From NCBI RefSeq assembly GCF_024464655.1, contig NZ_JANHAV010000006.1, forward strand, positions 1-64,000: a stretch of DNA of 64,000 bases, read 5' to 3'. Shown here in pieces: positions 2,065-18,672 of the stretch. Source of the stretch: Halobellus inordinatus. Its GTDB lineage: Archaea > Halobacteriota > Halobacteria > Halobacteriales > Haloferacaceae. Numbering within the stretch: position 1 is the stretch's first letter; every line of letters starts with the position of its first letter. The notes below the pieces were generated by a model. It ran no database searches and was not told where the DNA came from. It saw nothing but the letters and a program-made list of their open reading frames with translations. The position numbers were made by a program, and so were the translations under genes.

Positions 2065-3216
2065 ATGGATCTCACAGAACGCATCGAACGCCGCCGAAAC
2101 CGGAGCAGCAACAACGAGCTTATCGTCGATCGCGACTCGCTGAATCCCGCGATGCATCTCTCCGAGCCGGTCGGCCGAGAAACCCTCTTCGAGGCCTTAC
2201 TGGACGCGATCGACCCACTTTTCGATCACGCCGTGCCGCCGAACACCTACGTCTGGGGTCCACAGGGCTCCGGAAAGTCGGCCATCGTGACCGCGCTCGT
2301 ATCGGTGCTCGATACGGAGATGAGTGCCCACGACCCGTTCTACACTGCCACCCGGAGCGGAAGCGACCGCGACGACGTCCGTGTCGTCTATCTCGACGCA
2401 CGGCGGGCCGCGAGCCGCTTTCGACTCTATCGGGAGCTGCTCGACAGTCTCCTCGTAGAGTCGGTCCCGAGACGCGGGGTGAGCACCGATGCGCTGCGCG
2501 AGCGGATCGAGACTGTCACGGCCGCGAGCGAAACCGTACTGGTCGCCGTCGATCACCTCGGAGAACAGACGACAGTCGATCTGGCGGACCTCTATACGTT
2601 CTTCGAGCCGTTCGAAGACCTCGCGTGGATCGGTGTCGGCCGGACGTCGCCCGAGAAACTGTCGCTCCCACTGCCGGAACAGCAGATCCACGTGCCCGCG
2701 TACACGTACGAACTCGTCGACATCCTGACAGTCCGCGGGTCCAGAGGGCTCTCACAGACACTCGATCACGTTCACGCACAGCGACTTGCAGACTGGGCCG
2801 ACGGCGACGCTCACAACGCGCTCGCGGCCCTGTTCCTCGCCGCGAGCAACGCGGAAACCGACGGGGCAACGCGGCTCCGCGACGAGGACATCGACGCCGG
2901 GAGAGCGGCCGTACCGAGAGACGGCGTCCCGATCGGGCAAGTGCTGGCACTCTCGGACAACGAACGACTGGTTCTCGACCAGCTACTGGAACTCTCACTC
3001 GACGGCGAGGCGCGGATCGAGACCGCGGCCGAGCAGATCGCCGAGCGGACCGACCTGACTCACGGGACGGTCAAACGACTACTGTACGAACTCGCGCAGT
3101 TCGGCGTTCTGGAACGGCGGGAAGTCTCCGTCGGCGCCCAGGTGGCCGGGCGACGACCGAGCGGCGTCGCGCTGAACTTCGCCCCCCGACTGCTTACCGC
3201 ACTGCAAGGCGGATGA
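2065..3216 (+). CDS. Degenerate Orc1/Cdc6-like AAA ATPase with C-terminal winged helix
   Basis: A 383-residue protein of Orc1/Cdc6 architecture: AAA domain, then a winged helix (about 295-383). Walker A is intact (GPQGSGKS, 65-72). The Walker B position reads VLVAVDHL (158-165), with His164 where the family has the catalytic Glu. Sensor 1 reads GVGRTS instead of an Asn-type motif, and the sensor-2 region reads GDAH (247-250) instead of GDAR. It may therefore bind but not hydrolyse ATP. I chose the ATG at 2065; a longer in-frame start at 1975 would overlap the preceding gene. Its stop overlaps the kinase start (ATGA), so the two are co-translated. This suggests a regulator rather than a replication initiator, but that is inference. 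Confidence 0.75.
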   Translation: MDLTERIERRRNRSSNNELIVDRDSLNPAMHLSEPVGRETLFEALLDAIDPLFDHAVPPNTYVWGPQGSGKSAIVTALVSVLDTEMSAHDPFYTATRSGSDRDDVRVVYLDARRAASRFRLYRELLDSLLVESVPRRGVSTDALRERIETVTAASETVLVAVDHLGEQTTVDLADLYTFFEPFEDLAWIGVGRTSPEKLSLPLPEQQIHVPAYTYELVDILTVRGSRGLSQTLDHVHAQRLADWADGDAHNALAALFLAASNAETDGATRLRDEDIDAGRAAVPRDGVPIGQVLALSDNERLVLDQLLELSLDGEARIETAAEQIAERTDLTHGTVKRLLYELAQFGVLERREVSVGAQVAGRRPSGVALNFAPRLLTALQGG

Positions 3217-4787
3217 GCACGACCTACATCGGCGCGCTGGATCAGGGGACGAGCGGAACCAGATTCGTCGTCTTCGACGAACGCGGCGATCCGACCTCGG
3301 AGGCGTTCACCAGTCATCGTCCGACGACACGCGAGGGCGACCGCGTCGAGTACGACCCCCTCAAACTGTGGGGCTGTGCGACCGACGCGATCCGGCGCGG
3401 ACTGGTGCAGGCCGATGTCGACTCGGCGAGGGCGCTGCGTGCGCTCGGCGTGTCGAGTCAGCGCCAGACGGTGCTGCTGTGGGAGGCGGAGTCCGGAACG
3501 CCGGTCACGAACGCGATCAGTTGGCGCGACCGGCGGACGACCGAGCAGATCACGGAGCTGACTGACGAGGAGCGGCGGTTGATCCGCGAGCGAACCGGGC
3601 TCGAACCGGACCCGTACTTCGCCGCGCCCAACGCCAAATGGCTCCTCGATCACGGTCGCGGTCGGTGCGGCGACGAAGGCGACCGCCACGAAGGGGGCAG
3701 CAGCCGTCTGCACCGCGGCAGTGACGACCAGAGCGGCCTCCGTGAACGGGCGGAAGCCGGCGAGGTGCTTCTCGGCACCGTCGACTCGTGGCTCCTCTAC
3801 AATCTCACGGGCACACACGCGACGGACGTCACCAACGCTGCCCAGACGATGCTGTTCGACATCCACGAGTTGCAGTGGGACGACGACCTCTTGGACCTGT
3901 TCGACGTGCCGCGAGCGGCGTTGCCTGCGGTACACGCTTCCAGCGACCCGTCGGGGTTCGGCACGACCGATCCGAACGGGATCCTCAACGCTGCCGTTCC
4001 CGTGACGGGCGTGATGGGCGACCAGCAAGCGGCGCTCCTCGGACGAGTCGCGTGCGGCGAGGGCGACGCCAAAGTCACCTACGGAACGGGGAATTTCTTC
4101 CTCCAGAACACCGGGAGCGATCCGGTCGCGGCCGACGGCGACCTTCTGACGACGATCTGGTTTCAGCGGGCGGGTGCGGAACCACGCTACGGGCTCGAAG
4201 GGCCGGTATTCGCCACGGGCGCGGTGTTGGAGTGGCTCCGGACGATCGGGCTGCTCGAAGACGCGAGCGGACTCGCAGAACTCGATAGCACGGAGTCGCC
4301 GGGAGATCTGCAGCTCGTTCCGGGCTTCGGCGGTCTCGGTGCACCCCACTGGGTGCCGGACCTCCGGGCGGGAGTGTTCGGGCTACGCAGAGAAACCGAC
4401 CCCGACGACGTACTGCGAGCGGCCGTGGAGGCGATCGCGTTCGGGACGCGGACAGTCCTCGAAACGGCCGAAGCCACGACTGGAATCGAACAGCGTCCCC
4501 TCCTCGTCGACGGCGGCGCAATCCAGGACGACGAGTTCGCGCAGTGGCAGGCGGATCTCCTCGATCGGCGACTGGTTCGCTCGAGCGTGACGCAGACGAC
4601 GGCGTTGGGCGCGGGATTCGCGGCGGGTCTCGCGACAGGCGTGTGGGATTCGCTCGACGACCTCGCGCCCTGTCAACCGACCGGGCGGGCGTTCACGCCG
4701 TCCGGGGACGCGAGTGCAGTCGAGACGGCGTACCAGAACTGGGGCGACGTCGTCGACGCCGTCGTCAGGTGCCACGGCATGCGGTAA
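3213..4787 (+). CDS. FGGY-family kinase, glycerol-kinase-like
   Basis: ATP-dependent sugar/polyol kinase of 524 residues, closest in pattern to GlpK. It has the N-terminal phosphate motif GALDQGTSGTR, ISWRDRRT, the DPYFAAPNAKW segment, GVMGDQQAALLGR (catalytic Asp of GDQQ), YGTGNFF and the FGGLGAPHW signature. Two departures from GlpK stand out. The substrate-binding Arg-Glu pair (R83/E84 in E. coli) is Arg84-Gln85 here, and a Gly/Arg/His-rich insertion of about 28 residues follows KWLLDH (near residue 148). Both could mean a substrate other than glycerol. The ATG at 3213 overlaps the Orc-like gene's stop. Downstream lie an ABC importer, a demethylase and a phosphatase. Confidence 0.85.
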   Translation: MSTTYIGALDQGTSGTRFVVFDERGDPTSEAFTSHRPTTREGDRVEYDPLKLWGCATDAIRRGLVQADVDSARALRALGVSSQRQTVLLWEAESGTPVTNAISWRDRRTTEQITELTDEERRLIRERTGLEPDPYFAAPNAKWLLDHGRGRCGDEGDRHEGGSSRLHRGSDDQSGLRERAEAGEVLLGTVDSWLLYNLTGTHATDVTNAAQTMLFDIHELQWDDDLLDLFDVPRAALPAVHASSDPSGFGTTDPNGILNAAVPVTGVMGDQQAALLGRVACGEGDAKVTYGTGNFFLQNTGSDPVAADGDLLTTIWFQRAGAEPRYGLEGPVFATGAVLEWLRTIGLLEDASGLAELDSTESPGDLQLVPGFGGLGAPHWVPDLRAGVFGLRRETDPDDVLRAAVEAIAFGTRTVLETAEATTGIEQRPLLVDGGAIQDDEFAQWQADLLDRRLVRSSVTQTTALGAGFAAGLATGVWDSLDDLAPCQPTGRAFTPSGDASAVETAYQNWGDVVDAVVRCHGMR

Positions 4788-5040
4788 TATTTATCTTCGA
4801 TAGGCAAGCCACGAATAATCTATTTAGAAGGGGATGTTCCACTCGATAGAAGTTCCAAGACGGTTTTAGATGCATACACTGGATCAGTAGCAGGCGGAGC
4901 ACGGCAACGCGAGCAATCCTCAAGACAGCCGACTGCCGCAAAATATCGTCCGGTAACATTGTGTACTGAACGAATAAATGACCGTCTCAGCGATTAATAG
5001 CGCTATTTTCGGAGATGCCGAGTAACATACACCTATGTAT
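4788..5040. other. AT-rich intergenic region, no gene
   Basis: About 250 bp between the kinase and the importer operon. It is much richer in A/T than its surroundings and has no plausible reading frame. It contains ATTAATAGCGCTATTTT, an interrupted palindrome at about 4993-5009, and leads into the TATA-like element at 5041-5050. Confidence 0.5.
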
Positions 5041-5050
5041 TATATTTATT
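5041..5050 (+). promoter_or_regulatory. TATA box of the ABC importer operon
   Basis: TATATTTATT lies 60 bp before the proposed start. It predicts transcription start near 5072, inside the 39-bp motif at 5053-5091, so a protein bound there would block initiation. Confidence 0.5.
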
Positions 5051-5052
5051 CA

Positions 5053-5091
5053 CCAAAGATTTATTGCAATTTCTCGTCAATACCTTTATTG
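5053..5091. promoter_or_regulatory. Candidate operator, copy 1 of a shared 39-bp motif
   Basis: This stretch and 10637-10675 agree at about 31 positions, with one compensating gap. Shared blocks in order are CCAAAGAT, TATTG, AATTT, TCAAT and CTTTATTG. Within it are the 8-bp palindrome ATTGCAAT (5063-5070) and the inverted repeat CAAT-N6-ATTG (5078-5091), also present in copy 2. It lies between the TATA box and the start of the importer operon, the place expected for a repressor site. Confidence 0.55.
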
Positions 5092-5109
5092 CTGGTAGCT
5101 ATGTTCTCA

Positions 5110-6318
5110 ATGAAAGACTCCGCGACGCGACGCAAGATCCTCGCATCGGGCGGTGCAGTCCTCGGCGGGAGTCTCGCTGGGTGCCTCAGTGGCGGCGACA
5201 GTGGAAGCGGTACTGGGGACGGCGACACCGGCGGGACGACGGGTACGGGAGGCGACGGCACCTCTGGGGGGAGCGGGAGTTGCTCGGGTGAGACCTACGA
5301 GGTCGGCTACGGCGACTCCCAGACGACCGTCTGTTCGGACGCTTTCCCGACCGACGAGAAACTGTACGTGTACGCGGTTCAGTCGGGGTGGATGAACTGG
5401 CCGGAGGTAATGCAAGCGTTCAAAGAGCAGTACGGCGTCCAGCTCAACGACGACGACCGGTCGTCGGGTGAGGCGCTACAGGACGCCCGCTCGCACGCGC
5501 AGAACCCCACGCACTCGGCGTTCAACGGCGGGTACACCTACGCAATCCAGGCGATGCAGGACGGATTGACTCAGGCGTACAAGCCGGCGAACTGGGACAA
5601 AGTCCCCGACAGCGCGAAGACCGACAACGGCCACTGTACGGGGACGCGGAAGGTGACGACGGCGCTCACCTACCGGAAGGACCTCTTCGAGGAGCGCGGA
5701 CTCGACGAACCGCAGACCTGGGAGGACCTGAAGCACCCAGACATTATGCAGGACCTCGCGCTGCAGACGCCGCAGGCGGCCGTCGGGCTCGCAGCGGCCC
5801 TCTCGATCAACAACGCCTACGGCGGGTCCCTCGACGACGTCCAACCGGTGATCGACTACTACAACGAGATCCAGGAAGGGGGTGCGGAGTTCACCGACAA
5901 CTTCCTGGCGCAGTTCACGAGCGGCGAGTACGGCTCGTTCATCCGCTACGACTACTCGGGGCTGGATCTGAAGTACAACGTCGAGGACATCGCCGAGGAG
6001 AACGTCGGCGTCGCGCTCCTCGAAGGGCCGAACGGGGAGGCCGGCGCGTTCAACGCGCTGTACGGCTACGCGATGCTGGCGAACGCACCGAATCCAGAGG
6101 CGGTGAAGAAATTCATGGACTACGTGCTCTCGCTGGAAGGCCAGCGGAAGTTCCTCAAGGCGTACGCGCGGCCGATCCGGGCCTCGGAGATGGATATGCC
6201 CGACGAATTCCCGCCGCAGAGCCGATACGACAAGACACAGTTCACTGTCGATCAGTCGGCGCTGGTCGAAAACCAGGAGACGATCATCCAGGACATCACG
6301 CGCGGAGCCAGCCTGTAA
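5110..6318 (+). CDS. ABC importer substrate-binding lipoprotein (AfuA/PotD-like)
   Basis: Extracellular solute-binding protein. The N-terminus is a Tat lipoprotein signal: twin arginine in SATRRKILASGG, hydrophobic core, lipobox LAGC, then a Gly/Ser/Thr linker typical of haloarchaeal lipoproteins. The mature part has the family-1 binding-protein fold pattern (LTYRKDLFEERGLDEPQTWEDL, then LEGQRKFLKAYARPIR). I used the ATG at 5110; 5101 is an in-frame alternative three codons earlier. It is first of four genes: two permeases and an ATPase follow within 3 bp or with overlap. The family includes polyamine, iron and sugar/glycerol-phosphate binders, so the substrate cannot be read from the sequence. 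The neighbouring kinase and phosphatase favour a polyol or phosphorylated compound (inference). Confidence 0.88.
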   Translation: MKDSATRRKILASGGAVLGGSLAGCLSGGDSGSGTGDGDTGGTTGTGGDGTSGGSGSCSGETYEVGYGDSQTTVCSDAFPTDEKLYVYAVQSGWMNWPEVMQAFKEQYGVQLNDDDRSSGEALQDARSHAQNPTHSAFNGGYTYAIQAMQDGLTQAYKPANWDKVPDSAKTDNGHCTGTRKVTTALTYRKDLFEERGLDEPQTWEDLKHPDIMQDLALQTPQAAVGLAAALSINNAYGGSLDDVQPVIDYYNEIQEGGAEFTDNFLAQFTSGEYGSFIRYDYSGLDLKYNVEDIAEENVGVALLEGPNGEAGAFNALYGYAMLANAPNPEAVKKFMDYVLSLEGQRKFLKAYARPIRASEMDMPDEFPPQSRYDKTQFTVDQSALVENQETIIQDITRGASL

Positions 6319-6321
6319 GCG

Positions 6322-7245
6322 ATGGCGGCCGATCAAGTATCGATGGGCACGCGGGCGACGGGTGCAGTCCGGACCGCCGTCGGATCGGTAGTGTCCCCGA
6401 CGTCCGAGCGACAGCGGGAGATACGGCGCATCGTCGCCCTCTGTCTGCCGTTCTCTGTGCTCTTGGTGTTCTCCGGCGTCTTCCCGCTGACGGAGATGTT
6501 TCGAATCAGTTTCTCCGAAAGTCGGCTCGTGACCGAGGGCTTCACCCTCGAGTACTATCGGACGATGGTGAACGATCCGTACTATCGGAACATCGCCTTC
6601 AACACGCTGTGGTTCGCGGCCGCGACGACGGTCGCGTCGATCAGCATCGCCGTCCCCGTGGCGCACGCGCTCGAAAAGTACGCGCTCCCCGCGAAGTCGG
6701 TGATCCTGACGATCCTGTCGTTCCCGAACAGCCTCCCCGGGATCGTCGCGGCGTTTATGATCATCATCCTGTTCGGAAACACGGGCGTGTTCACCAACCT
6801 CCTCGCGTTCCTGTCGGGGCAATCGCGGATCGACGTTGCCATCTCGACAGGCGTGTTGGGGCTGTTCTTCGCGTACCTCTACTCGATGATCCCGCGCGCG
6901 CTCCTGTTGCTCCGTGGAACCTACTCGGAGATTAACACGGACGCCGAGGAGGCGGCCCGCGTGTTGGGAGCGACGCCCCTCCAGACGTTCCGCTACGTGA
7001 CGCTCCCGCAGATCAAACCGGGTTTGATCGGCGCGTTCATCCTCGTGTTCCGGACCGGACTCGCCATCTTCGGAACCGTCCTGATCCTGAAGGGGCTGCT
7101 CGTCTGGACGCTCCAGATCGACCGTGAACTCGCCCAGGGCTTCAACATCGCGCAGGCCTCGGCGATGGCGACGATCTGGTTCGTCTTTGTGTTCGGGTTC
7201 ACGGTGTTCGCACTTCGGTACACCAGTGCGGAGGTGAGCATATGA
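6322..7245 (+). CDS. ABC importer permease, first subunit
   Basis: Integral membrane subunit of 307 residues with about six hydrophobic segments. The cytoplasmic EAA loop (EAARVLGATPLQTFRYVTLPQIKPGLIGAF) is clear near residue 213 and contacts the ATPase. The N-terminal ~35 residues are polar. It starts 3 bp after the binding-protein stop and overlaps the second permease by the ATGA arrangement, so subunit levels are translationally coupled. The pattern fits the PotB/FbpB-type binding-protein-dependent transport family. Confidence 0.88.
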   Translation: MAADQVSMGTRATGAVRTAVGSVVSPTSERQREIRRIVALCLPFSVLLVFSGVFPLTEMFRISFSESRLVTEGFTLEYYRTMVNDPYYRNIAFNTLWFAAATTVASISIAVPVAHALEKYALPAKSVILTILSFPNSLPGIVAAFMIIILFGNTGVFTNLLAFLSGQSRIDVAISTGVLGLFFAYLYSMIPRALLLLRGTYSEINTDAEEAARVLGATPLQTFRYVTLPQIKPGLIGAFILVFRTGLAIFGTVLILKGLLVWTLQIDRELAQGFNIAQASAMATIWFVFVFGFTVFALRYTSAEVSI

Positions 7246-8075
7246 CCGAACGATTCCAACGGGGCAGCCTCTCTGCCCGCTTCGGCCGGCCAGTCGTCAA
7301 ACTCGTGTTGGTGCTGACGCTCGTCTTCCTCGCGTTCCCGGTCGTGATGACGTTCGTCAGTTCGTTCGCCTCCGATTGGTTCGGCGTCTTCCCCAGCGGC
7401 TTCGTCACGATACAGAACTGGGAAGACGTCATCGTCGGTACCGGCGTCGGTGCCGACGTCGCAGTCGGGTCCTCGCTGGCGTACAGTACCGGGCTCGCTC
7501 TCGGTGGAGTCGTCATCAACCTCATCGTCGGCGTGCCGATCGCGTACGCGGTCGCACGCTACGACTTCTGGGGGCGAGACTGGGTCAACGTCTTCGCGAT
7601 TCTCCCGCTGGCGCCCGGGATCATCCTGGGTGTGGCCTTCCTCCGGACGTACCCGGACCTCTCGACGTCCGGCATCGCCCTGATTATCGGCTACTCGCTA
7701 CTGAAAGCACCGTATATGGTGATGGCGGTGCAGTCGAGTTTTCAGTCGATGGATCTCCAACAGATCGAAGAGAGCGCCCGCTCGCTCGGTGCGTCGTGGC
7801 CGCGCACGTTCCTCACGGTGATCGTCCCGAACGCCCGGACGGGCATCATCGCCGGCTCGATCATCTCCTGGACGCTCGCGGCCGCGGAGTTCAACTTCTC
7901 GTACATCGTCTACTCTCGCGGGACGCCGCCGCTCGCGATCTTCCTGTTCAACAACATCACGAACGCCTCGTTCCTGAACGCGGCCGCGGCCGTCTCGGTG
8001 TTCTTCCTGCTCATCGCACTGGTCACGGTCTCGCTGCAGATCGTCGGTAACAGAGGGACGATTCGGAGGGTCTAA
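7242..8075 (+). CDS. ABC importer permease, second subunit
   Basis: Second membrane subunit, 277 residues, about six transmembrane segments. The EAA-type loop reads EESARSLGASWPRTFLTVIVPNARTGIIAG (near residue 179). It resembles PotC-type permeases. Its ATG lies within the stop of the first permease and its own stop is 3 bp before the ATPase gene, so it belongs to the same operon. Substrate unknown, as for the binding protein. Confidence 0.88.
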   Translation: MTERFQRGSLSARFGRPVVKLVLVLTLVFLAFPVVMTFVSSFASDWFGVFPSGFVTIQNWEDVIVGTGVGADVAVGSSLAYSTGLALGGVVINLIVGVPIAYAVARYDFWGRDWVNVFAILPLAPGIILGVAFLRTYPDLSTSGIALIIGYSLLKAPYMVMAVQSSFQSMDLQQIEESARSLGASWPRTFLTVIVPNARTGIIAGSIISWTLAAAEFNFSYIVYSRGTPPLAIFLFNNITNASFLNAAAAVSVFFLLIALVTVSLQIVGNRGTIRRV

Positions 8076-8078
8076 CGA

Positions 8079-9116
8079 ATGGCAAAAGTCTCACTCGAAA
8101 ACGTCACGAAACGCTTCGATTCGACAGTCGCCGTCGACGACGTCTCGATCGACATCGCCGACGGCGAAGTCATGGGAATCGTCGGCCCGTCCGGCTGTGG
8201 CAAGACGACGGCGCTCCGGCTCGTCGCCGGCTTCGAGACCGCCACCGACGGGACGATCCGCTACGACGACGAGGACGTCACGCCCGTCCCGCCGGAGAAT
8301 CGAAACGTCGGCTTGGTCTTTCAGTCCTACGCGCTGTTCAACAATATGAGCGTGCTCGGGAACGTCACGTTCGGGCCGAAGATGCACGGCGTCGGCAAAG
8401 CTGAACGCCGAGAGCGCGCGCGTGAACTACTCGAACTCCTCGACATCGAGGAGTTGGCCGACCGCGACCCCCAGACACTCTCGGGCGGCCAGCAGCAACG
8501 CGTCGGCCTCGCCCGCGCGCTCGCGATCGAGCCCCGGATTCTGCTGCTCGACGAGCCGATGACGGGGCTCGACGCGAAGCTGAAACAGACCTTACGGCAA
8601 GAGCTCGGCCAGTTGCTCGACGATCTCGGCGTGACGACGTTGTACGTCACGCACGATCAAGAGCAGGCGATGTCGATGTGCGATCGGATCGCCGTGATGA
8701 ACGACGGCCACCTCGAACAGATCGGCACGCCGGCCGAGATCTACGAGGAGCCGGCAAACGAGTTCGTCGCGGGCTTCATCGGCACCGCGAATCTGCTCGA
8801 TGCGACGGTCACTGACGGGCGGATCTCGTTCGGATTCGGCGACGTCGACGCGCCCGACGGACTCCGGTCGAGCGGCGACGTGACGGTTCTCGTTCGCCCG
8901 GACGACATCCGCGTCGGCGACGGTGAAGGCGACGCCGCCGTCGAAGTGACGAACCTGTTCTATCAGGGCGAGCACATCCAGGCGACGGGGACGCTTGCTG
9001 ACGGCCAAGAACTGACACTCCAACTGGATCGGTCGCTGACGAACGTCGAGACGGGCGACACCCTGTCGGTCGGCTTCGATCCGGAGACGCTCCACGTCAT
9101 CCGCTCGACCAAGTGA
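8079..9116 (+). CDS. ABC importer ATP-binding protein (PotA/MalK type)
   Basis: Cytoplasmic ATPase of 345 residues that powers the importer. Motifs in order: Walker A GPSGCGKTT, Q-loop FQSYALFNNM, signature LSGGQQQRVGLARALA, Walker B ILLLDEPMTGLD, and the H-loop in TLYVTHDQEQAM. Residues ~240-345 form the TOBE regulatory domain of PotA/MalK-like ATPases (GTANLLDATV, VLVRPDDIRV). It is last of the four contiguous importer genes. The demethylase gene starts about 170 bp later behind its own promoter. Confidence 0.93.
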   Translation: MAKVSLENVTKRFDSTVAVDDVSIDIADGEVMGIVGPSGCGKTTALRLVAGFETATDGTIRYDDEDVTPVPPENRNVGLVFQSYALFNNMSVLGNVTFGPKMHGVGKAERRERARELLELLDIEELADRDPQTLSGGQQQRVGLARALAIEPRILLLDEPMTGLDAKLKQTLRQELGQLLDDLGVTTLYVTHDQEQAMSMCDRIAVMNDGHLEQIGTPAEIYEEPANEFVAGFIGTANLLDATVTDGRISFGFGDVDAPDGLRSSGDVTVLVRPDDIRVGDGEGDAAVEVTNLFYQGEHIQATGTLADGQELTLQLDRSLTNVETGDTLSVGFDPETLHVIRSTK

Positions 9117-9130
9117 CTGGGGAGGAACGA

Positions 9131-9196
9131 CCAGATGGCTGTGGAAGAGCGGCCAGATGGATGTAGAAGAGCGGCCAGATGGCTGTGGGGGGACGC
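9131..9196 (+). repeat. Three 22-bp tandem repeats
   Basis: Three direct units begin at 9131, 9153 and 9175. Each starts CCAGATGG and continues TGTGGAAGAGCGG or a close variant. The second differs from the first at two bases and the third is degenerate at its end. They lie just after the importer operon, before the demethylase promoter. They could be regulatory or a slippage product. Confidence 0.7.
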
Positions 9197-9246
9197 CGAG
9201 TGCCATCTAGCGCCACTTATTTACTGTCACTACCCAGATTGGAGGT

Positions 9247-9256
9247 AATTTTTAAG
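9247..9256 (+). promoter_or_regulatory. TATA box of the demethylase gene
   Basis: AATTTTTAAG, centred near 9252, predicts transcription start near 9279. That leaves a leader of about 9 nt before the ATG at 9288 and would exclude the in-frame ATG at 9273. Confidence 0.5.
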
Positions 9257-9287
9257 ATGACGACCCGAGAAGATGTTTGTTGGGCAA

Positions 9288-10631
9288 ATGACTGATCCAA
9301 GCCTCGAAGACGCGCTGGACGCGGCAGGTAGTCCGATGGACTTGCTCCGTGAAAACCGGGGACGACACCCCTATCCGGTTCCCAGCGAGCACACGAACTG
9401 GATCGAGGAGGAACGGAGCTGGCGAGAGACGTGCAGCCTGTCGGACCTCTCTCACCACCAGAAAGACCTCTACGTCGAGGGGCCCGACGCGCTGGCCGTC
9501 TTCGTCGACCTCGGAGCCAACGACTTCGAGGGGTTCGAGCCCGGTCAGGCCAAACAGTTCGTCGCCTGCAACACCGACGGCTACCTGATCGGCGACGCGA
9601 TCCTGTTTTACCTCGACGACGAGCGGTTGAAACTCACCGGCACACCGATCGCGCCGAACTGGGTCGAGTACAACCTCGAAACGGGCGATTACGACGCGGT
9701 CGCGACAGCGGACGAGCGGTATCACGACAAGGACGAACCGCACAGAACCTTCCGGTATCAGCTACAGGGGCCGAACGCACTCGACGTGATGAGAGCCGCA
9801 GTCGAGGGGTCGCTCCCGGAGATTCCGTTCTTCAATTTCGACGAGGTGACGATCGCAGGCGTCGACGTGCGCGCGTTGAAACACTCGATGGCGTCGGACG
9901 TCGGCTTCGAGATCTGGGGGCCGTGGGAGGCGAGCGAGACCGTTCGAAAGACGATCCTCGACGCCGGCGAGGACCACGGCCTCCGCCAACTCGGCGAGAA
10001 GAGCTACAAGGCGCAGGGCTCTGAGAAAGGCTGGATCGCCCGTCCGCTCCCCGCGATCTTCGGCGACGAGATGGTGGAGTATCGGGAGTGGCTGGACGGG
10101 GACAGCTACGAGGCGAGCAGCACGCTCGGCGGGAGTTTCGCCGCCGACGACGTATCCGAGTACTACCTGAATCCGATCGAACTCGGATACGAGCGATTCG
10201 TCGATTTCGCCCGCGACTTCCCCGGCAGAGACGCGCTCGCGGAAATGGCAGAGGCGTCGCAGCGCCAGAAAGTAACGCTCGTCTGGGACGACGACGACGT
10301 CATCGACCTGTTTGCGTCGTTACTGCGAGACGGAGAGACGTACAAGTACTTCGACCTCTCGATGCCCTACTGGGCGGTCTTCCACTACGACGAGGTCCTG
10401 AGAGGCGGTGAGACCGTCGGTCTCTCGAAGTACTTCGGCTACACCTACAACGAGCGTGCCGTCCTGTCGCTGGCACTCGTCGACGAGGAGTACAGCGAAC
10501 CTGGAACCGAGGTGACGCTGGTGTGGGGTGAACCGGGCGGTGAATCGCCGAACCCCAAAGTCGAATCGCACACGCAGACGGAGATCAGCGCCACGGTGGC
10601 GCCGAACCCGTACGTCGAGGCCGAGCGCTAG
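9288..10631 (+). CDS. Folate-dependent demethylase, LigM/GcvT-like aminomethyltransferase family
   Basis: About 447 residues of the glycine-cleavage T-protein superfamily, which moves one-carbon units to tetrahydrofolate. It has the T-protein order: HTNWIEEERSWRETCSLSDLSHHQKDLYVEGPDAL near the start, then FEIWGPWE. The C-terminal GYTYNERAVLSLALVDEEYSEPGTEVTLVWGEPGG resembles the LigM/DesA O-demethylases and related DmdA-like enzymes more than GcvT, and no other glycine-cleavage gene is nearby. It probably removes a methyl group from an O-, N- or S-methylated compound brought in by the adjacent importer (inference). The start at 9288 fits the TATA box. The importer lies upstream and a phosphatase downstream, all on this strand. 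Confidence 0.82.
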   Translation: MTDPSLEDALDAAGSPMDLLRENRGRHPYPVPSEHTNWIEEERSWRETCSLSDLSHHQKDLYVEGPDALAVFVDLGANDFEGFEPGQAKQFVACNTDGYLIGDAILFYLDDERLKLTGTPIAPNWVEYNLETGDYDAVATADERYHDKDEPHRTFRYQLQGPNALDVMRAAVEGSLPEIPFFNFDEVTIAGVDVRALKHSMASDVGFEIWGPWEASETVRKTILDAGEDHGLRQLGEKSYKAQGSEKGWIARPLPAIFGDEMVEYREWLDGDSYEASSTLGGSFAADDVSEYYLNPIELGYERFVDFARDFPGRDALAEMAEASQRQKVTLVWDDDDVIDLFASLLRDGETYKYFDLSMPYWAVFHYDEVLRGGETVGLSKYFGYTYNERAVLSLALVDEEYSEPGTEVTLVWGEPGGESPNPKVESHTQTEISATVAPNPYVEAER

Positions 10632-10636
10632 CGCAG

Positions 10637-10675
10637 CCAAAGATTATTGTAATTTGGTCATCAATTTCTTTATTG
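10637..10675. promoter_or_regulatory. Candidate operator, copy 2 of the shared 39-bp motif
   Basis: It matches 5053-5091 in order and spacing (CCAAAGAT, TATTG, AATTT, TCAAT, CTTTATTG) and keeps the CAAT-N6-ATTG inverted repeat (10662-10675). It begins 6 bp after the demethylase stop and 125 bp before the phosphatase start, suggesting common control of importer and phosphatase transcription. Confidence 0.55.
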
Positions 10676-10800
10676 ATGCATATCATACTTCCAGTAACCA
10701 AACAGCTCCGTCGGTCAGCGTCGGATAGGTGGGCCGTACAGGCCTCGGAGGCGCCCGACGACCGGAGGGCGCTCGCCGGGCACACAGTCCCGGACGGCCA

Positions 10801-11589
10801 ATGAGCATCGCCGAGCACGAGGCCGCGATCTTGGACCTGGATGGGACAGTCTATCTGGGCGACAAACTCATCCCGGGTGCCGGCGAGACCGTGCAGTTGC
10901 TGCGCGAGGAGGTCGGAGAGGTGCTGTTCCTCACGAACAAGGCCATCGCGCGCCGCGGCGACTACAGCGAAAAGTTGCGACGACTCGGCATCGACGTCGA
11001 GCGCAGCGACGTCGTCAACTCCGGGTGGGTAACCGCCCAGTACGTCAGCGAGCGCTTCCCTTCCGCGGCGGCGTTCGTCGTCGGCGAAGGCCCGCTTCTC
11101 GAGGAGTTCCGGGAGGCGGGCGTCACGACAGTGACAGAGACACCGGGCGACATCGTCGTGGCATCGATGGACCGCCACTTCGACTACGACACGCTCGAGA
11201 CCGCGCTCCGAACGCTCGAAGACGGTGCGCCGTTCCTGGCGACGAATCCGGACCGGACCTGTCCGACTGAGAAGAGTGCGATCCCGGACGCCGCGGGGAT
11301 GATCGGCGCCATCGAAGGCGTGACGGGACAGACCGTCGACGAGGTGCTCGGGAAGCCGTCCGCGACGATGGTCGAGACGGCTCTCGGGGAGGTCGGCGTC
11401 GACCCCGGCGACTGCCTGATGGTCGGCGACCGGATCGAGACGGACATCCGGATGGGCGACCGTGCCGGGATGACCACCGTCCTCGTGCTCACGGGAGTGA
11501 CTGACCGCGAAATGATCGCCGACGTGAGCGTCGATCCCGATTACGTCCTCGACTCCATCGCCGATGTCGAAGGTCTCCTCGTGGAGTGA
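10801..11589 (+). CDS. HAD-IIA family phosphatase (NagD/AraL-like)
   Basis: Cytoplasmic phosphatase of 262 residues. Haloacid dehalogenase motifs: I DLDGTVYLGD (nucleophile Asp near residue 13, DxDGT), II FLTNKA, III with Lys in LGKPSA, and IV GDRIETDIRMGDRAGM. The cap between motifs II and III is of the NagD type (FLATNPDRTCP). Family members dephosphorylate sugar, glycerol or nucleotide phosphates. Next to a glycerol-kinase-like enzyme it could oppose or follow that kinase. I chose the ATG at 10801 because the in-frame extension to 10729 is Arg/Gly-rich and unlike a protein start. It is convergent with orc1, with a 54-bp gap. Confidence 0.88.
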   Translation: MSIAEHEAAILDLDGTVYLGDKLIPGAGETVQLLREEVGEVLFLTNKAIARRGDYSEKLRRLGIDVERSDVVNSGWVTAQYVSERFPSAAAFVVGEGPLLEEFREAGVTTVTETPGDIVVASMDRHFDYDTLETALRTLEDGAPFLATNPDRTCPTEKSAIPDAAGMIGAIEGVTGQTVDEVLGKPSATMVETALGEVGVDPGDCLMVGDRIETDIRMGDRAGMTTVLVLTGVTDREMIADVSVDPDYVLDSIADVEGLLVE

Positions 11590-11643: not shown

Positions 11644-12849
11644 TCAGACGTCGTCGCTCTCGGTCAGGACGTCTTTGACCACTTGAGGATCCTCCAGAAG
11701 CTGGTGCTTCGTGTAGCTCCCCTCGGCGCTCCCGCCGCTGTGTTTGGACTGCTCGATGATGTCGAGGAAGGCGTGTTCTTTCAGCAGATCGCGGACGCGA
11801 CGTAGCGAGAGCGTATCCGAGCCCTGGCCGTCGCAGATGTTCTCGTAGACCTCGTAGACGCGACTCGTTCGGAATCCCTCCTGTCGCTCGCTCGACAGCG
11901 AGAGGATCGCGAGGGCCTGCAACACGTACCGGGAGTGCGGCGTCGACCCGCGGATGAGTTCGCGGAAGCGATCGGTCTCCGCACGCTCGCGAGCCTGCGT
12001 CACGAACTCCTCGCGGACGATCTGTGCGCCCTTCGATTGAGCGATCTCACCGGCGTACCGAAGAATGTCGATCGCCTTGCGGGCGTCACCGTGTTCTCTG
12101 GCTGCGAGCGCTGCCGCGCGCGGGATCGTCGAGGGGTCGAGGACGTCGTCGCGGAAGGCGTCCGACCGCGCCTGCATAATGTTTCGGAGTTGGTTGGCGT
12201 CGTACGGCGGGAAGACGAACTCGCGTTCACAGAGGCTGGATTTGACGCGTTCGTCCATCCGGTCTTTGTATTGGATCTTGTTGCTGATGCCGATCACGCC
12301 GAGTTTGCACTGGTCGATCTTGCCGGCCTCCCCCGCCCGCGAGAGTTGCATCAGAATGTCGTCGTCGGAGAGTTTGTCGATCTCGTCGAGCAGAATCAAG
12401 ACGACATCGTACTGTGCATCGAGGATTCGCCACAGCCGCTTGTAGTACGTCGACGTGCTGAGTCCCTTGTCCGGGACTTTGATTCCGGTAACTTCGGATT
12501 CGTTGACGCCGTCCGCGATGGTTTGGACCGCTTGCGTCTCGGTCGTGTCCTGTGCGCAGTCGACGTAGGCGAACGTCGCTTTCACGTCTTCCTCGCCGGC
12601 GGTTTCCACCAACCGCTGTGAGACGTACTTCGCACAGAGCGACTTACCCGTACCCGTCTTGCCGTAGATGAGAACGTTGCTCGGACTCTGACCGAAGATC
12701 GCCGGATTGACCGCCGCCGCCAGATCAGAGATTTCGTCGTCGCGACCGACGATCCGTCCCTCCCCCGGAAGGTGGTTGATCTCCAAGAGCTCTTTGTTGG
12801 AGAAGATGGGGTCCTCTCGGGTGAAGAGGTCGTCGCTGGTGTTCGGCAT
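11644..12849 (-). CDS. orc1: Orc1/Cdc6 family replication initiator
   Basis: Origin-binding AAA ATPase, 401 residues. Walker A YGKTGTGKS (about 62-70), Walker B VLILLDEIDKL with the catalytic Glu, sensor 1 GISNK, sensor 2 GDARKAID, then a C-terminal winged helix (about 310-401) that binds origin boxes. All catalytic elements missing from the Orc-like protein at 2065 are intact here. I chose the ATG at 12849 (MPNTSDDLF) over upstream in-frame ATGs because those run through an origin box and look non-protein. The gene reads away from the origin region, and one origin box lies only 9 bp before its start, so it probably regulates its own transcription. Confidence 0.95.
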   Translation of the reverse strand: MPNTSDDLFTREDPIFSNKELLEINHLPGEGRIVGRDDEISDLAAAVNPAIFGQSPSNVLIYGKTGTGKSLCAKYVSQRLVETAGEEDVKATFAYVDCAQDTTETQAVQTIADGVNESEVTGIKVPDKGLSTSTYYKRLWRILDAQYDVVLILLDEIDKLSDDDILMQLSRAGEAGKIDQCKLGVIGISNKIQYKDRMDERVKSSLCEREFVFPPYDANQLRNIMQARSDAFRDDVLDPSTIPRAAALAAREHGDARKAIDILRYAGEIAQSKGAQIVREEFVTQARERAETDRFRELIRGSTPHSRYVLQALAILSLSSERQEGFRTSRVYEVYENICDGQGSDTLSLRRVRDLLKEHAFLDIIEQSKHSGGSAEGSYTKHQLLEDPQVVKDVLTESDDV

Positions 12850-12857
12850 ACTACAGG

Positions 12858-12878
12858 ACACCGGGTTTCCGGTGAAAT
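12858..12878 (-). repeat. Origin recognition box 1
   Basis: Read on the minus strand it is TTTCACCGGAAACCCGGTGT plus one base, one change from the core. It lies directly before the orc1 start codon. Confidence 0.88.
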
Positions 12879-13047
12879 GCGTTGTTATTTCCCCCGGTTC
12901 GACGGTGATGCTGTCGGACACATTTTCGGGAAGCATCGCGACATCCTGTGGTACTGGGCATCTTCGTACGGTTATGTCCGACGGCTGACGGCCACGTTGT
13001 TCCGACAGGGCACGGCGACTGATTCGACAGACTACCGGACGACACAC

Positions 13048-13997: not shown

Positions 13998-16127
13998 ATG
14001 ACGGAAGAGGAGGGGACTGGCGGGCCAACTGCACCGGAGGGAGCGTCTCCCGAGGTGACGCCTGCCGACGAGTCTCACGACGCCGACGGCGCTTACGACA
14101 CCGACGGCGCTTACGACACCGACGGCGCTTACGACACCGACGAGTCTCACGACGCCGACGGCGCTTACGACACCGACGGCGCTTACGACACCGACGAGTC
14201 TCACGACGCCGACACGTCTACTGCTAACGTCGATCTCGATCGCTTCCACGACGTACTGGAGGCGGAGGGCCGTCCGGTCGTGACGGCCTCGGAAGTCGCA
14301 CGCCGGCTCGACACGACGCAGTCGGCCGCCGCCGCAGATCTCGATGCGCTGACTGACGACGGGGCGGTCGAACGGGTGAACGTCGAGACGGACCCGATCG
14401 TCTACTTCCCGAGCGAGTGGGCGAAACTCGCCGAGCGCGAGCGGATCGTGCTGTTCCCGGAACGGCGACAGATCGTGGTCGATCAACCGACGCAGTACAC
14501 CCGCGCGCAACTCTCACAGTTCGCCCACCTCGTCGACACCACGGGCGAGCGGGCGCGGTCGACCACTGACCGGCAGACCGGTACCCGCGGCTACATCTAC
14601 GAGATCCGCCAGGAGGACGTCTGGCAAGCCCCTTTCGACGATCTCGCCGACTTGCTGTCGCTGATGCGGTCGGTGCTCCCGCGGCGGTCACCCCCGCTTG
14701 AGGAGTGGGTCGAATCACAGTGGAAACGCGCGAACCGATTCCGCCTGTTCACCCACGAAGACGGATACGTCGTCCTCGAAGCCGCCTCCGAGAGCCTGAT
14801 GGGCAACGTCGCGCGGCAGAAACTCGACGACGAACAGCTCGTCGCGCCGATTTCGGATACGCAGAGCTGGGTTCGCGACGGCGCCGAAGCCGAGATCAAG
14901 CGGATCCTCTACGAAGCGGGCTATCCCGTCGAAGACGACCGAGACCTCGACACGGGGGAACCGCTCGACGTGGAATTGACTGTCGACTTGCGCGAGTACC
15001 AATCCGACTGGGTCGAGCGTTTCCTCGATCAGCGCTCCGGCGTCCTCGTCGGCCCCTCCGGCGCGGGCAAGACCGTGACCGCTATCGGCGTCCTCGCGGC
15101 GGTCGGCGGCGAGACGCTGATTCTCGTCCCGTCGCGGGAACTCGCCGCACAGTGGCGTGCCGAACTGCTCGAACACACGACGCTCACCGAAGAGCAGATC
15201 GGTGAGTACCACGGCGGGCAAAAGGAGATCAACCCGGTCACGATCGCGACCTACCAGACGGCGGGGATGGACCGTCACCGCTCCCTGTTCGACTCCCGCG
15301 GGTGGGGGCTCGTCGTCTACGACGAGGTCCATCACATCCCCTCGCGGATCTACCGACGTAGCGCCGACCTCCAGACGAAACATCGACTCGGACTGTCGGC
15401 GACGCCGGTGCGCGAAGACGACAAAGAGAAGGAGATTTTCACGCTCATCGGACGCCCGATCGGCACCGACTGGTCGAAGCTCTTCGAGGCAGGGTACGTT
15501 CAAGAGCCCGAAGTACAGATCCGATACGTGCCCTGGGGCGAGGAGTTCGCCCGGAACGAGTGGGCGAGTGCGGACGGCCGCGACAGACACCGGATCGCAG
15601 CCGAGAATCCCGAGAAGATCGACGAAACGCGGCGGCTCCTCGACGCACACCCGGACGCGAAGACGCTCGTCTTCGTGGATTGGCTAGATCAGGGCGAAGC
15701 CCTCGCGGACGCGCTCGACGTGCCGTTCGTGAGCGGAGAGATGCCACACCACCGTCGCGAGCGCGTCTTCGCGTCGTTCCGCGCGGGCGATCTCCGAACC
15801 CTCGTCGTCTCGCGCGTCGGTGACGAGGGGATCGATCTCCCGAACGCGGAACTCGCCATCGTCGCCTCCGGACTCGGCGGGTCTCGCCGGCAGGGAGCAC
15901 AGCGCGCCGGCCGGACGATGCGTCCTGCTGGCGGATCGCAGGTGTACGTGCTCGCGACCCGCGGAACCTCGGAAGAAGACTTCGCGCAGCGACAGATGCG
16001 CCACCTCGCCGAGAAGGGTATCCGCGTGACTGAGACGGACCGCAGCACCCGGAAATCGGACGGAGAGAGTTCGGCATCCGAGGCCTCGCCCGCGACGACC
16101 GATCCCGCCGCAAACGGCGAGGAGTAA
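13998..16127 (+). CDS. XPB/Rad25-like superfamily 2 DNA helicase
   Basis: ATP-dependent DNA helicase/translocase of 709 residues. Residues 24-71 are a low-complexity stretch of eight 6-residue units (GAYDTD or ESHDAD). A winged-helix-like segment follows (VTASEVARRLDTTQSAAAADLDAL). The SF2 core starts near residue 330: LREYQSDWVERFL (Q-like), motif I GPSGAGKT, motif II as DEVH in VVYDEVHHIP, motif III LGLSATP. The C-terminal lobe carries motif V and motif VI (QGAQRAGRTMRPAGG). Haloarchaeal annotations usually call this Rad25. It reads away from the origin and is followed 7 bp later by a methyltransferase, suggesting an operon. Confidence 0.9.
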   Translation: MTEEEGTGGPTAPEGASPEVTPADESHDADGAYDTDGAYDTDGAYDTDESHDADGAYDTDGAYDTDESHDADTSTANVDLDRFHDVLEAEGRPVVTASEVARRLDTTQSAAAADLDALTDDGAVERVNVETDPIVYFPSEWAKLAERERIVLFPERRQIVVDQPTQYTRAQLSQFAHLVDTTGERARSTTDRQTGTRGYIYEIRQEDVWQAPFDDLADLLSLMRSVLPRRSPPLEEWVESQWKRANRFRLFTHEDGYVVLEAASESLMGNVARQKLDDEQLVAPISDTQSWVRDGAEAEIKRILYEAGYPVEDDRDLDTGEPLDVELTVDLREYQSDWVERFLDQRSGVLVGPSGAGKTVTAIGVLAAVGGETLILVPSRELAAQWRAELLEHTTLTEEQIGEYHGGQKEINPVTIATYQTAGMDRHRSLFDSRGWGLVVYDEVHHIPSRIYRRSADLQTKHRLGLSATPVREDDKEKEIFTLIGRPIGTDWSKLFEAGYVQEPEVQIRYVPWGEEFARNEWASADGRDRHRIAAENPEKIDETRRLLDAHPDAKTLVFVDWLDQGEALADALDVPFVSGEMPHHRRERVFASFRAGDLRTLVVSRVGDEGIDLPNAELAIVASGLGGSRRQGAQRAGRTMRPAGGSQVYVLATRGTSEEDFAQRQMRHLAEKGIRVTETDRSTRKSDGESSASEASPATTDPAANGEE
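14070..14213 (+). repeat. Eight 18-bp in-frame tandem repeats in the helicase gene
   Basis: Two unit types, GAGTCTCACGACGCCGAC (A) and GGCGCTTACGACACCGAC (B), occur in the order A-BBB-A-BB-A without gaps. The DNA copies of each type are identical, so expansion was recent or is homogenised. The units encode ESHDAD and GAYDTD, giving an acidic, probably disordered N-terminal tail. Confidence 0.95.
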
Positions 16128-16134
16128 GCAGCCG

Positions 16135-18672
16135 ATGGCCGACCAGCGCCGGGACGTCGACACCGCCGCGTGCGCGCGCCACCTGGCCGACAGCGAGCGC
16201 CTCGCTCGATACCGCTCACGACTCCGGGATTCGCTCTCGGATCCCCCGGTTGCTGACGCGTTCGAGGCGTGGCACCGGTACGTTCGCGAGCGACACGGCG
16301 ACGTCTTCGCCACTCTCGCGGCCGCAGGCGGCGAACGATCCCCCGTCGACGGCGGCGGAACCACGGGCGGCGCCGACCGATCCACCGCCAATGTAGCCCG
16401 ATCGGACGCCGACGTCGCCCGCGACCTGTTCGTCGAAACGCTCGCGTTCGACTACCTCCTCACCGAGATCCTCGATGCGGTCGAACGAGAGTTCGAGTGC
16501 ACGGTCACACGCTCGCTCGCCGCGGACGCCGCGATTCCGTTCACGCCGAATTTCGAGGCCGTGCACGAGTCGATTTCACCCCATCTCGACACCGGAACCG
16601 CGGACGCAGGATGCGACTTCGACACCCAGGCGTCTACCTTCGCCCGCGAGGCTTCGAGTCGGGACGTCGCACTCCTCCATCGTGAGTGCGTCTCGCCGCT
16701 CGCCCGTCGAGCGTTCGGCCGCTACGACACACCGCAGGGACTCGCCGCACTCGCCGTCGACTCTGCCTTCGACGCCGGATCCCCTCACGACGGGACGCAG
16801 ACCCGAGATGAGACACCAGCCCACCACGAGACACCAGCCTACGACGAGACACCAGCCCACCACGAGACGTCGATCGCTGCCGATCGAGCACCTGCCGACC
16901 TCCCGCTCGTAGTGGACCCCGGCTGTGGCGCCGGTGCGTTTCTCGCTGCGACGGCGACCCGGTACGTCGACGCTCTCGCCGAGAACCCACTGAACGCCGA
17001 CGGTAGTCACGGGACGCCCATCCAGGCTATCTTCGATGCCGTCCGCGGCTTCGACGTTTCACCGACAGCCGTCCGTGCTTCGCGCTTGGCGCTGGTGCTC
17101 GCCGTGCGACCGTTGCTCGCCGCCGCCGACGGGTCGCCGACCGTCGCACCCCGGGTCGTTCTCGGCGACGCAGTCGACGCGACCGCAGATGACCCTCCGC
17201 TCGACGGTCGGCGCGCGGACGTCCTCCTCGCGAATCCACCGTGGCTGACCTGGGATTCGCTTCCGGAGGGCGCGAAAGACCGGTGGCGAGCGGGACCGTT
17301 CGAAGAAGCCGGGCTCGAACTGTTCGACCACACCGGCGCCGACGCCCGACTCGGATACGCGAACGACGATCTCTCCGTCCCATTCGGGTTGATGTGCCTT
17401 CACCGGCTCCTCCGGGATGGTGGTCGTGCTGCACTCGTCCTCAAACGGGATTTCCTCACCGGACCCGCTGGGGCACGTCTCCGTCGGCCGCAGGTGGGTC
17501 ATCGATCGATCACGTACGATCGCGTCCACGACTTCGGCTCGTTGTCACCGTTCACCGACGTCGATGCGGGCACCGCGCTGTTTTCACTTCGTCTCTCACC
17601 CGACGACGGCAGATCACCGTTCCCGACTGACGAGGGTATTCCGACCTGTCGCTGGACGGATGCTCCGGCGACGACGTCGGCTCGCTACGTCGACCGCTCC
17701 GATGGAACGTCAGCGTTTGAGTCGCTGGCGCGGATGCGGGCCTCGTTCGACAGCGCGGAGACGCGTCTCGTACCCGCAGACCCCGAGGACCCGACGTCAC
17801 CGTGGATCCGCGCCGACGCCGAACGAAGTGCACTCGGTTCGAGTCCGTATCGCATCCGTCACGGGGTGAAAGACGACGCCAAGGCGGTTTATGCCCTCGA
17901 CCGGGAGACCATCGAGAAGCAGGAACTCGAATCCGAGCACGTCTTTCCGTATCTGAAATCGAAACACATCGTGAAGTACGGGCTGTTCGGCCACGACCTG
18001 CAGCTCGTCCCCCAGCGACAGGCGGGCGAGGACAACGAACGCGAACTCAAGCAGGAAGCGCCGGCGACGTACGCGTACCTCGACGCGCACCGCGAACGGC
18101 TCACCGATCGCGGGTCGTCGTGGTTCGACGATGGGCCGTTCTACTCGCTCTTCGGGCTCGGCTCGTACACGTGGTCGACGTACAAAGTCGTCTGGTGCCG
18201 GCTCGGTTTCAAGCCGCACTTCACGGTCGTCTCCACAGTTTCCGACCCCCTCGTTGGTGAGAAGCCCGCGATACCCGGCGATCACTGTATGTTCGTCGGG
18301 ACCGACGACGAAGACGAAGCGCACTACCTCTGTGCGCTCCTCAATTCGGCACCGTACCAGCGCTGTCTCCGTACCATCTCTTCGGGCGGGAAATCGAGTC
18401 TCTCGAAGTCGACGGTCGAACGTCTCGCGCTACCGGAGTGGCGAGCGCGTCCGCGTCAGCGACAACTCGCGGAACTCTCACAACGTGCCCACGCCATCGT
18501 TCCCGACCACGTCGACTGTTCGAAGCGCGCGTACAACCAGAAGACGATCCCCGAGCTGCAGGCCGTCCAGACCGACATCGACCGCACGGCAGAACAGTTC
18601 CTGTCGGTTCTCGACGAACAGCCATCGCCCGAGAGAGAACGAACCGGACCGACTGACGGCGACGATGAGTAA
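16135..18672 (+). CDS. Orphan N6-adenine DNA methyltransferase (Eco57I/PglX-like)
   Basis: Large methyltransferase, 845 residues. The SAM motif is VVDPGCGAGAFLAA (about 259-272) and the catalytic motif IV is LLANPPWLTW (about 365-374), the NPPW form of NPPY used by N6-adenine and N4-cytosine enzymes. A target-recognition-like C-terminal half follows (EHVFPYLKSKHIVKYGLFGHDL, then SGGKSSLSKSTVERLALPEW). No PD-(D/E)XK motif is obvious, so restriction is unproven. No separate endonuclease or BREX gene lies nearby. It sits 7 bp after the helicase, so the two are probably co-transcribed. Tandem repeats (16810-16863) encode ETPAHH/ETPAYD units before the SAM motif. Confidence 0.85.
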   Translation: MADQRRDVDTAACARHLADSERLARYRSRLRDSLSDPPVADAFEAWHRYVRERHGDVFATLAAAGGERSPVDGGGTTGGADRSTANVARSDADVARDLFVETLAFDYLLTEILDAVEREFECTVTRSLAADAAIPFTPNFEAVHESISPHLDTGTADAGCDFDTQASTFAREASSRDVALLHRECVSPLARRAFGRYDTPQGLAALAVDSAFDAGSPHDGTQTRDETPAHHETPAYDETPAHHETSIAADRAPADLPLVVDPGCGAGAFLAATATRYVDALAENPLNADGSHGTPIQAIFDAVRGFDVSPTAVRASRLALVLAVRPLLAAADGSPTVAPRVVLGDAVDATADDPPLDGRRADVLLANPPWLTWDSLPEGAKDRWRAGPFEEAGLELFDHTGADARLGYANDDLSVPFGLMCLHRLLRDGGRAALVLKRDFLTGPAGARLRRPQVGHRSITYDRVHDFGSLSPFTDVDAGTALFSLRLSPDDGRSPFPTDEGIPTCRWTDAPATTSARYVDRSDGTSAFESLARMRASFDSAETRLVPADPEDPTSPWIRADAERSALGSSPYRIRHGVKDDAKAVYALDRETIEKQELESEHVFPYLKSKHIVKYGLFGHDLQLVPQRQAGEDNERELKQEAPATYAYLDAHRERLTDRGSSWFDDGPFYSLFGLGSYTWSTYKVVWCRLGFKPHFTVVSTVSDPLVGEKPAIPGDHCMFVGTDDEDEAHYLCALLNSAPYQRCLRTISSGGKSSLSKSTVERLALPEWRARPRQRQLAELSQRAHAIVPDHVDCSKRAYNQKTIPELQAVQTDIDRTAEQFLSVLDEQPSPERERTGPTDGDDE
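16810..16863 (+). repeat. Three 18-bp in-frame tandem repeats in the methyltransferase gene
   Basis: Three units starting GAGACACCAGCC at 16810, 16828 and 16846. Units 1 and 3 are identical (ending CACCAC) and the middle one ends TACGAC. They encode ETPAHH-ETPAYD-ETPAHH just before the SAM-binding domain. Confidence 0.9.

Follow-up and report, generated by a model that had tools for sequence, protein, structure and literature searches.

Gene content of the locus

The first 64,000 nucleotides of Halobellus inordinatus contig NZ_JANHAV010000006.1 (here, the window) contain eight genes on one strand, between positions 2065 and 11589, which encode an Orc-like protein, a kinase, an ABC importer, a demethylase-like protein related to LigM, and a phosphatase. 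We interpret this locus, with about an even chance of being right (roughly 0.5), as one for the scavenging of glycerol-type organophosphates to which a methyl-removing step of the LigM family has been recruited. The gene calls, coordinates, order, and strand given for the eight genes in an initial annotation, made from the sequence alone, were found to be right. The genes and two promoter elements, in window coordinates, are as follows.

2065..3216, + strand: Orc-like AAA+ protein with winged helix, of the glycerol-locus type (AAA_16/AAA_22 domains), probable regulator
3213..4787, + strand: FGGY kinase, glycerol-kinase type (FGGY_N/C)
5053..5094, + strand: promoter element 1, 5' of the importer operon (from alignment to element 2)
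5101..6318, + strand: substrate-binding lipoprotein (SBP) of the importer (SBP_bac_1/8)
6322..7245, + strand: ABC importer permease 1 (BPD_transp_1)
7242..8075, + strand: ABC importer permease 2 (BPD_transp_1)
8079..9116, + strand: ABC importer ATPase (ABC_tran and TOBE_2)
9288..10631, + strand: LigM/DesA-family folate-dependent demethylase-like protein (GCV_T; PDB 5tl4, E 4e-116)
10637..10678, + strand: promoter element 2, 5' of the phosphatase gene (second genomic copy of the element)
10801..11589, + strand: HAD-IIA phosphatase (TIGR01460, above cut-off)

The kinase start overlaps the stop of the Orc-like gene by 4 bp. Because the kinase and importer genes are separated by 313 bp, the importer and LigM-like genes by 171 bp, and the LigM-like and HAD-IIA genes by 169 bp, the set is not one unit and probably comprises several transcription units. 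The SBP has a Tat/lipobox N terminus (MKDSATRRKIL..LAGC) and probably starts at ATG 5110 rather than at 5101. The LigM-like open reading frame (ORF) opens at 9273, where an ATG is an alternative start, and GTG 10729 is an alternative start of the HAD-IIA gene.

Conservation and regulation within Halobellus

We compared 17 Halobellus genomes, in nine of which the set recurs. Orthologs of the LigM-like protein (79-100% identity) and of the HAD-IIA phosphatase (72-100%) are present in exactly the same nine of them; the probability of such a match would be 1/24,310 for independent genomes, but these are kin and most of them have the segment in common. The kinase ortholog is present in eight of these nine genomes, as is the importer. 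In most Halobellus loci, permease 1 is 85-90% and permease 2 is 90-94% identical. All gene pairs measured against three relatives have dN/dS ratios of about 0.07-0.4, well below 1; the ratio for the LigM-like gene is about 0.13, and similar values for its neighbors indicate constraint. Since these ratios are well below 1 and the gene order is kept in other Halobellus species, the locus is not a product of chance. The initial annotation had named co-occurrence in related genomes as a check on its proposal: the set is conserved within Halobellus, but among haloarchaeal genomes outside the genus the full set was not found, only sub-sets. The locus is thus real, conserved, and lineage specific, and the functions proposed for it below are read from sequence and gene neighborhood only.

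Three genomes show how the set comes apart. (i) In H. salinus (L046/L050), the importer, LigM-like, and HAD-IIA genes are retained in a different context; a kinase ortholog is missing, and only a remnant is left of the Orc-like gene. (ii) In H. captivus (L032), the importer is gone save for a 50-residue ATPase remnant, and the kinase, LigM-like, and HAD-IIA genes are intact. (iii) In genome G116 (L048), the set is present without an adjoining Orc1 gene. Its four importer genes have all diverged (identity 53-67%, versus 79-94% elsewhere), unlike its LigM-like and HAD-IIA genes. Here a GDPD gene lies between the importer and the LigM-like gene, and the importer is nearest to those of L117, L114, L163, L109, and L161; in the first three of these, a calcineurin-like phosphoesterase gene follows immediately 3' of the importer. 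This suggests that the importer of G116 was swapped for a relative from a phosphoesterase-linked clade and that the locus needs this transport function. In a draft genome of H. rufus (L036), the kinase gene, the LigM-like gene, and the neighboring gene of an 845-amino-acid protein look frameshifted, possibly through draft sequencing errors.

In the alignment of elements 1 and 2, 36 of 43 columns are identical (P = 0.0013; 374 upstream regions served as controls). The core pattern of the element, for which the two sites were the source, has exactly two copies in the 3.41-Mb genome, one 5' of the SBP gene and one 5' of the HAD-IIA gene, and none in a reversed control; this count shows that the pattern is private to the two sites and is not a predicted one. 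The shared element ties the importer to the phosphatase. The LigM-like gene has a different upstream stretch, ATTTACT...GTAATTTTTAAG, at about 9217-9256, which is conserved across Halobellus loci and is probably the gene's own promoter and perhaps an operator. Between the ATPase and LigM-like genes, at 9106-9188, there are also three imperfect tandem repeats spaced by 22 bp, and simple repeats resembling them are located 5' of the HAD-IIA gene in L032 and L049. The first DNA pattern guessed for a direct repeat gave no matches.

The locus is flanked upstream by a gene for an HVO_A0261-type regulator and by a putative TATA-binding protein gene, recognized by its sequence. Just downstream, at 11644-12936 on the minus strand, lies a true Orc1/Cdc6 gene (429.9 bits), and the segment 12865-13864 holds five copies of GTTTCACCGGAAAC, one of them with one mismatch, where 0.02 would be expected by chance. 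The Orc1 gene and the repeats probably represent a replication origin, which immediately adjoins the locus and may itself preserve synteny. Beyond it, at 13998-18672, genes for an XPB/ERCC3-type helicase and for the 845-amino-acid protein, which has no Pfam match, form a pair that is conserved next to the origin in Halobellus.

Relatives of the importer, phosphatase, kinase, and Orc-like protein

SBP orthologs are found in 69 of 384 haloarchaeal genomes, mostly without a LigM gene nearby. A phosphoesterase gene (GDPD, calcineurin-like, or HAD) lies within two genes after the ATPase gene in 11 of 61 LigM-less loci, against a background of 4 in 348 gene pairs (P = 3e-7, uncorrected for kinship). 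Two of the 11, loci L104 and L106, have the order importer-HAD-GDPD, with HAD proteins of 56-57% identity and no LigM gene. Linkage of importer and phosphoesterase, by which we recognize an organophosphate uptake locus, is thus present in relatives. The same logic is seen in UgpBAEC with UgpQ (GDPD), and UgpBAEC-type loci elsewhere contain orthologs of the HAD-IIA phosphatase as well as relatives of the Orc-like protein. However, unlike UgpB, the importer described here belongs to an AEP/AfuA/FbpA-like family (AEP, 2-aminoethylphosphonate), and the present locus has a folate demethylase and a GlpK-like kinase in addition, whereas a GDPD gene is present only in G116. Comparable uptake of organophosphates is known from haloarchaea, in which a glycerol-3-phosphate importer and a glycerophosphodiesterase rise under phosphate starvation (PMC6560208).

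The nearest solved relatives of the SBP are 5t1p, P5PA (6wce), and AfuA (4r72), and by sequence the importer shares a family with the AEP importers PhnSTUV and AepXVW, with AfuABC, and with P5PA. We rejected an AEP importer as such, because the scores of both SBP and ATPase are far below the equivalog cut-offs: the SBP scores 71.1 bits with PhnS, the best AEP-type model (cut-off 310), and the ATPase scores 357.7 bits with PhnT2, its best NCBIfam model (cut-off 457.7). A link of the importer to ATP synthase and CoA-ligase genes, seen at many loci of one genus, was taken as an unrelated location.

The phosphatase scores 145.1 bits with TIGR01460 (cut-off 100.15) and carries the motifs DLDGT and GDRIETD, which place it in HAD-IIA. 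In the PDB it matches Pho2/NagD and two glycerol-3-phosphate phosphatases (7po7 and 4i9f), with which it shares subfamily and motifs. Orthologs with 44-67% identity adjoin PhnCDE or UgpBAEC with GDPD, or follow orthologs of the present importer, and the closest one outside Halobellus (67%) adjoins a Ugp-type operon with GDPD.

The kinase falls short of two GlpK models (472.8 bits versus a cut-off of 498; 465.8 bits versus 590.35) and matches Escherichia coli GlpK (3ezw) at E 7e-112. Of seven glycerol-binding residues, it keeps R83, W103, Y135, D245, Q246, and F270, whereas the copies at this locus have Q in place of the seventh, E84. The Orc-like protein scores 75.8 bits with the Orc1 model TIGR02928 (cut-off 181.3) and lacks Cdc6_C; as a replication initiator it was rejected, the score being too low and a true Orc1 lying next door. 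Relatives of it are present in 200 of 295 haloarchaeal genomes. Among 28 inspected outside Halobellus (L190-L217), 15 adjoin glpK and 11 adjoin glpC within 1.5 kb, which makes the glpK/glpC-linked Orc-like AAA protein a candidate glycerol regulator across haloarchaea. The haloarchaeal glpK/glpABC locus thus shares with the present one a kinase paralog and an Orc-like protein of the same type; compared with that glpK, the kinase gene studied here is a second copy that has diverged, carries E84Q, and is linked to an importer and a demethylase.

The LigM-like protein and the substrate of the locus

LigM-type folate O-demethylases are known for lignin aromatics. The full-length homology of the LigM-like protein to LigM (5tl4, E 4e-116) settles its fold, and D56, H60, Q93, Q165, H206, E215, and Y247 (LigM numbering) are identical in eight orthologs. 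We take Y247 to be the catalytic tyrosine of LigM, and the conserved residues presumably belong to the folate-binding fold. H60, Y247, and other conserved residues are thus shared with LigM and DesA, the O-demethylases of vanillate/3-O-methylgallate and of syringate. However, the protein misses both curated cut-offs (448.8 versus 580 bits for LigM; 498.6 versus 800 bits for DesA), so that we rejected calling it a vanillate or syringate demethylase after its family. A plain GcvT role was rejected as well, since the GcvT score is far below its cut-off (43.8 versus 235.85 bits) and the locus has no GcvH/GcvP partner; the initial annotation had likewise seen no glycine-cleavage partners, and none was found among those ORFs of the window, a part of the total, that were scanned.

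Two further features set the protein apart from LigM and DesA. At the position of R122, which in LigM presumably contacts the aromatic carboxylate, all orthologs have T, and most haloarchaeal paralogs likewise lack the R. In the loop after Y247, the combination of K248, K254, and R259 occurs, among the homologs aligned, only in the orthologs; K254 is otherwise seen only in H. rufus, whose copy of this gene is frameshifted. The basic loop and the missing R122 would fit an anionic rather than a benzoate-like substrate. The gene also keeps different company, namely an importer, a phosphatase, and a kinase and no ring-cleavage genes, whereas the clusters that hold LigM paralogs in Halobellus and Natrialbaceae are of the aromatic type and also encode CoA ligases, Liv-type importers, MTHFR, FolD, and VOC-family proteins of the ring-cleavage type. 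LigM-like paralogs are expanded in several Halobellus genomes (G394-G398, G351, G354, and G253), reaching some 15 copies with at least 40% identity in a single genome, and H. limi has several on plasmids.

The relatives of the importer, the HAD-IIA phosphatase, the Orc-like protein, and the kinase point to glycerol or phosphate-ester metabolism, and, set against this phosphate-type context, the aromatic context of the LigM relatives makes the demethylase look like a newcomer recruited to the locus. According to the proposed scheme, the imported compound would be a phosphate ester or phosphodiester that probably contains glycerol. From this compound, or from a breakdown product, the LigM-like enzyme would transfer a methyl group to tetrahydrofolate, and the HAD-IIA phosphatase would strip the phosphate; the scheme does not fix the order of these middle steps. 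The GlpK-like kinase would then phosphorylate the freed glycerol-like polyol for the glp route, and the Orc-like protein may regulate or support the pathway. An MTHFR gene is present in the host genome and provides an outlet for methyl-tetrahydrofolate, the 5-methyl form of which would be re-oxidized by its product. Archaeal lipids carry sn-glycerol-1-phosphate, while the product of glycerol kinase is sn-glycerol-3-phosphate; a phosphatase followed by a kinase therefore need not be futile.

Several observations weigh against this scheme. The phosphate-contact residues of P5PA and AfuA are not clearly conserved in the SBP alignment, and 50 of the 61 LigM-less importer loci have no adjoining phosphoesterase. 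The nearest LigM relative outside Halobellus (59%, L051) adjoins a urea/Liv-type (Liv/Urt) importer, with no phosphate genes beside it. The shared promoter element is not found before the LigM-like gene (P = 0.13 for SBP/LigM and P = 0.64 for LigM/HAD), and six other Halobellus loci have no significant shared upstream element. H. salinus has lost the kinase and Orc-like genes, and H. captivus has lost the importer with the LigM-like, HAD-IIA, and kinase genes kept. Much of the synteny, moreover, could be due to inheritance of an origin-proximal segment.

Part of this evidence would also suit the main alternative, which we regard as possible but doubtful. Here an ordinary O-demethylase for methoxy-aromatics would have become lodged, near the origin, in an organophosphate locus with which it has no functional relation, between the importer and the phosphatase that belongs to it. 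This alternative would agree with the abundance of LigM paralogs, many of them in aromatic-type clusters, with a LigM promoter region that lacks the importer/HAD element, with the importer type beside the nearest outside relative, and with the importer-HAD linkage without LigM in L104 and L106. Against it, the LigM-like and HAD-IIA genes share exactly the same nine genomes and stay together in G116 and H. salinus as well as in H. captivus, which lacks the importer; no aromatic-ring gene was seen nearby, and the protein has exchanged R122 and gained its basic loop.

The initial annotation had proposed import of a compound methylated on O, N, or S, transfer of its methyl group to folate, and handling of a phosphorylated residue. 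Spelled out as a dedicated pathway for a methylated aromatic or polyol, this means that the kinase would phosphorylate the compound and the HAD protein would handle the product. Gene content and conservation agree with this reading, and a methylated polyol would be compatible. We nevertheless consider it very improbable: the relatives of the importer and of the HAD-IIA phosphatase indicate a substrate already phosphorylated at uptake, the importer is present in many haloarchaea without a LigM-like demethylase, and the context is not of the aromatic type. A methoxy-aromatic substrate is not supported: the aromatic-type LigM paralogs sit in quite different clusters (Liv importers, CoA ligases, VOC proteins, and folate C1 genes). 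The broader idea of import, folate demethylation, and a phosphorylated residue survives in part: the set is conserved, the LigM residues are kept, and a phosphorylated molecule is central, but the phosphate is the core rather than a side issue, because the neighborhoods of the importer, phosphatase, and regulator relatives are those of glycerol-phosphate or organophosphate uptake. Finally, an importer for a phosphonate or a non-glycerol phosphate ester (AEP, sugar phosphate, or pyridoxal phosphate) with the kinase and Orc-like genes as chance neighbors would fit the AEP-type best models of SBP and ATPase, the solved relatives P5PA and AfuA, and the separate loss of kinase and Orc-like gene in H. 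salinus, but it is highly unlikely given AEP scores far below all cut-offs, the association of importer and HAD-IIA phosphatase with GDPD and Ugp genes, and a locus in which no phosphonate-cleaving gene was seen.

Within glycerol-type organophosphate scavenging, a more specific substrate can be named, if at long odds: the head group of phosphatidylglycerophosphate methyl ester (PGP-Me), a phospholipid of haloarchaea. Its terminal phosphate is a glycerol-phosphate-methyl diester, and the head group is a candidate because it would explain the methyl, the phosphate, and the glycerol at once. The LigM-like protein would then be a folate-dependent phosphate-ester demethylase that passes the phosphate-ester methyl to tetrahydrofolate, after which the HAD-IIA phosphatase would release the phosphate and the GlpK-like kinase would turn the glycerol into sn-glycerol-3-phosphate; in LigM-less relatives, a GDPD or calcineurin-like phosphodiesterase would do the opening step. 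Every known taxon of Halobacteria has PGP-Me (PMC10999741). A limited literature search by title and abstract retrieved no paper on demethylation of its head group.

Our analysis shows that this family of putative organophosphate importers is found over many genera under vague annotation. The tie of a LigM-family protein to glycerol-phosphate scavenging suggests that LigM-type enzymes may have non-aromatic, possibly phosphorylated substrates. If the PGP-Me head group is indeed the substrate, the locus would represent a route for recycling the polar heads of haloarchaeal lipids.

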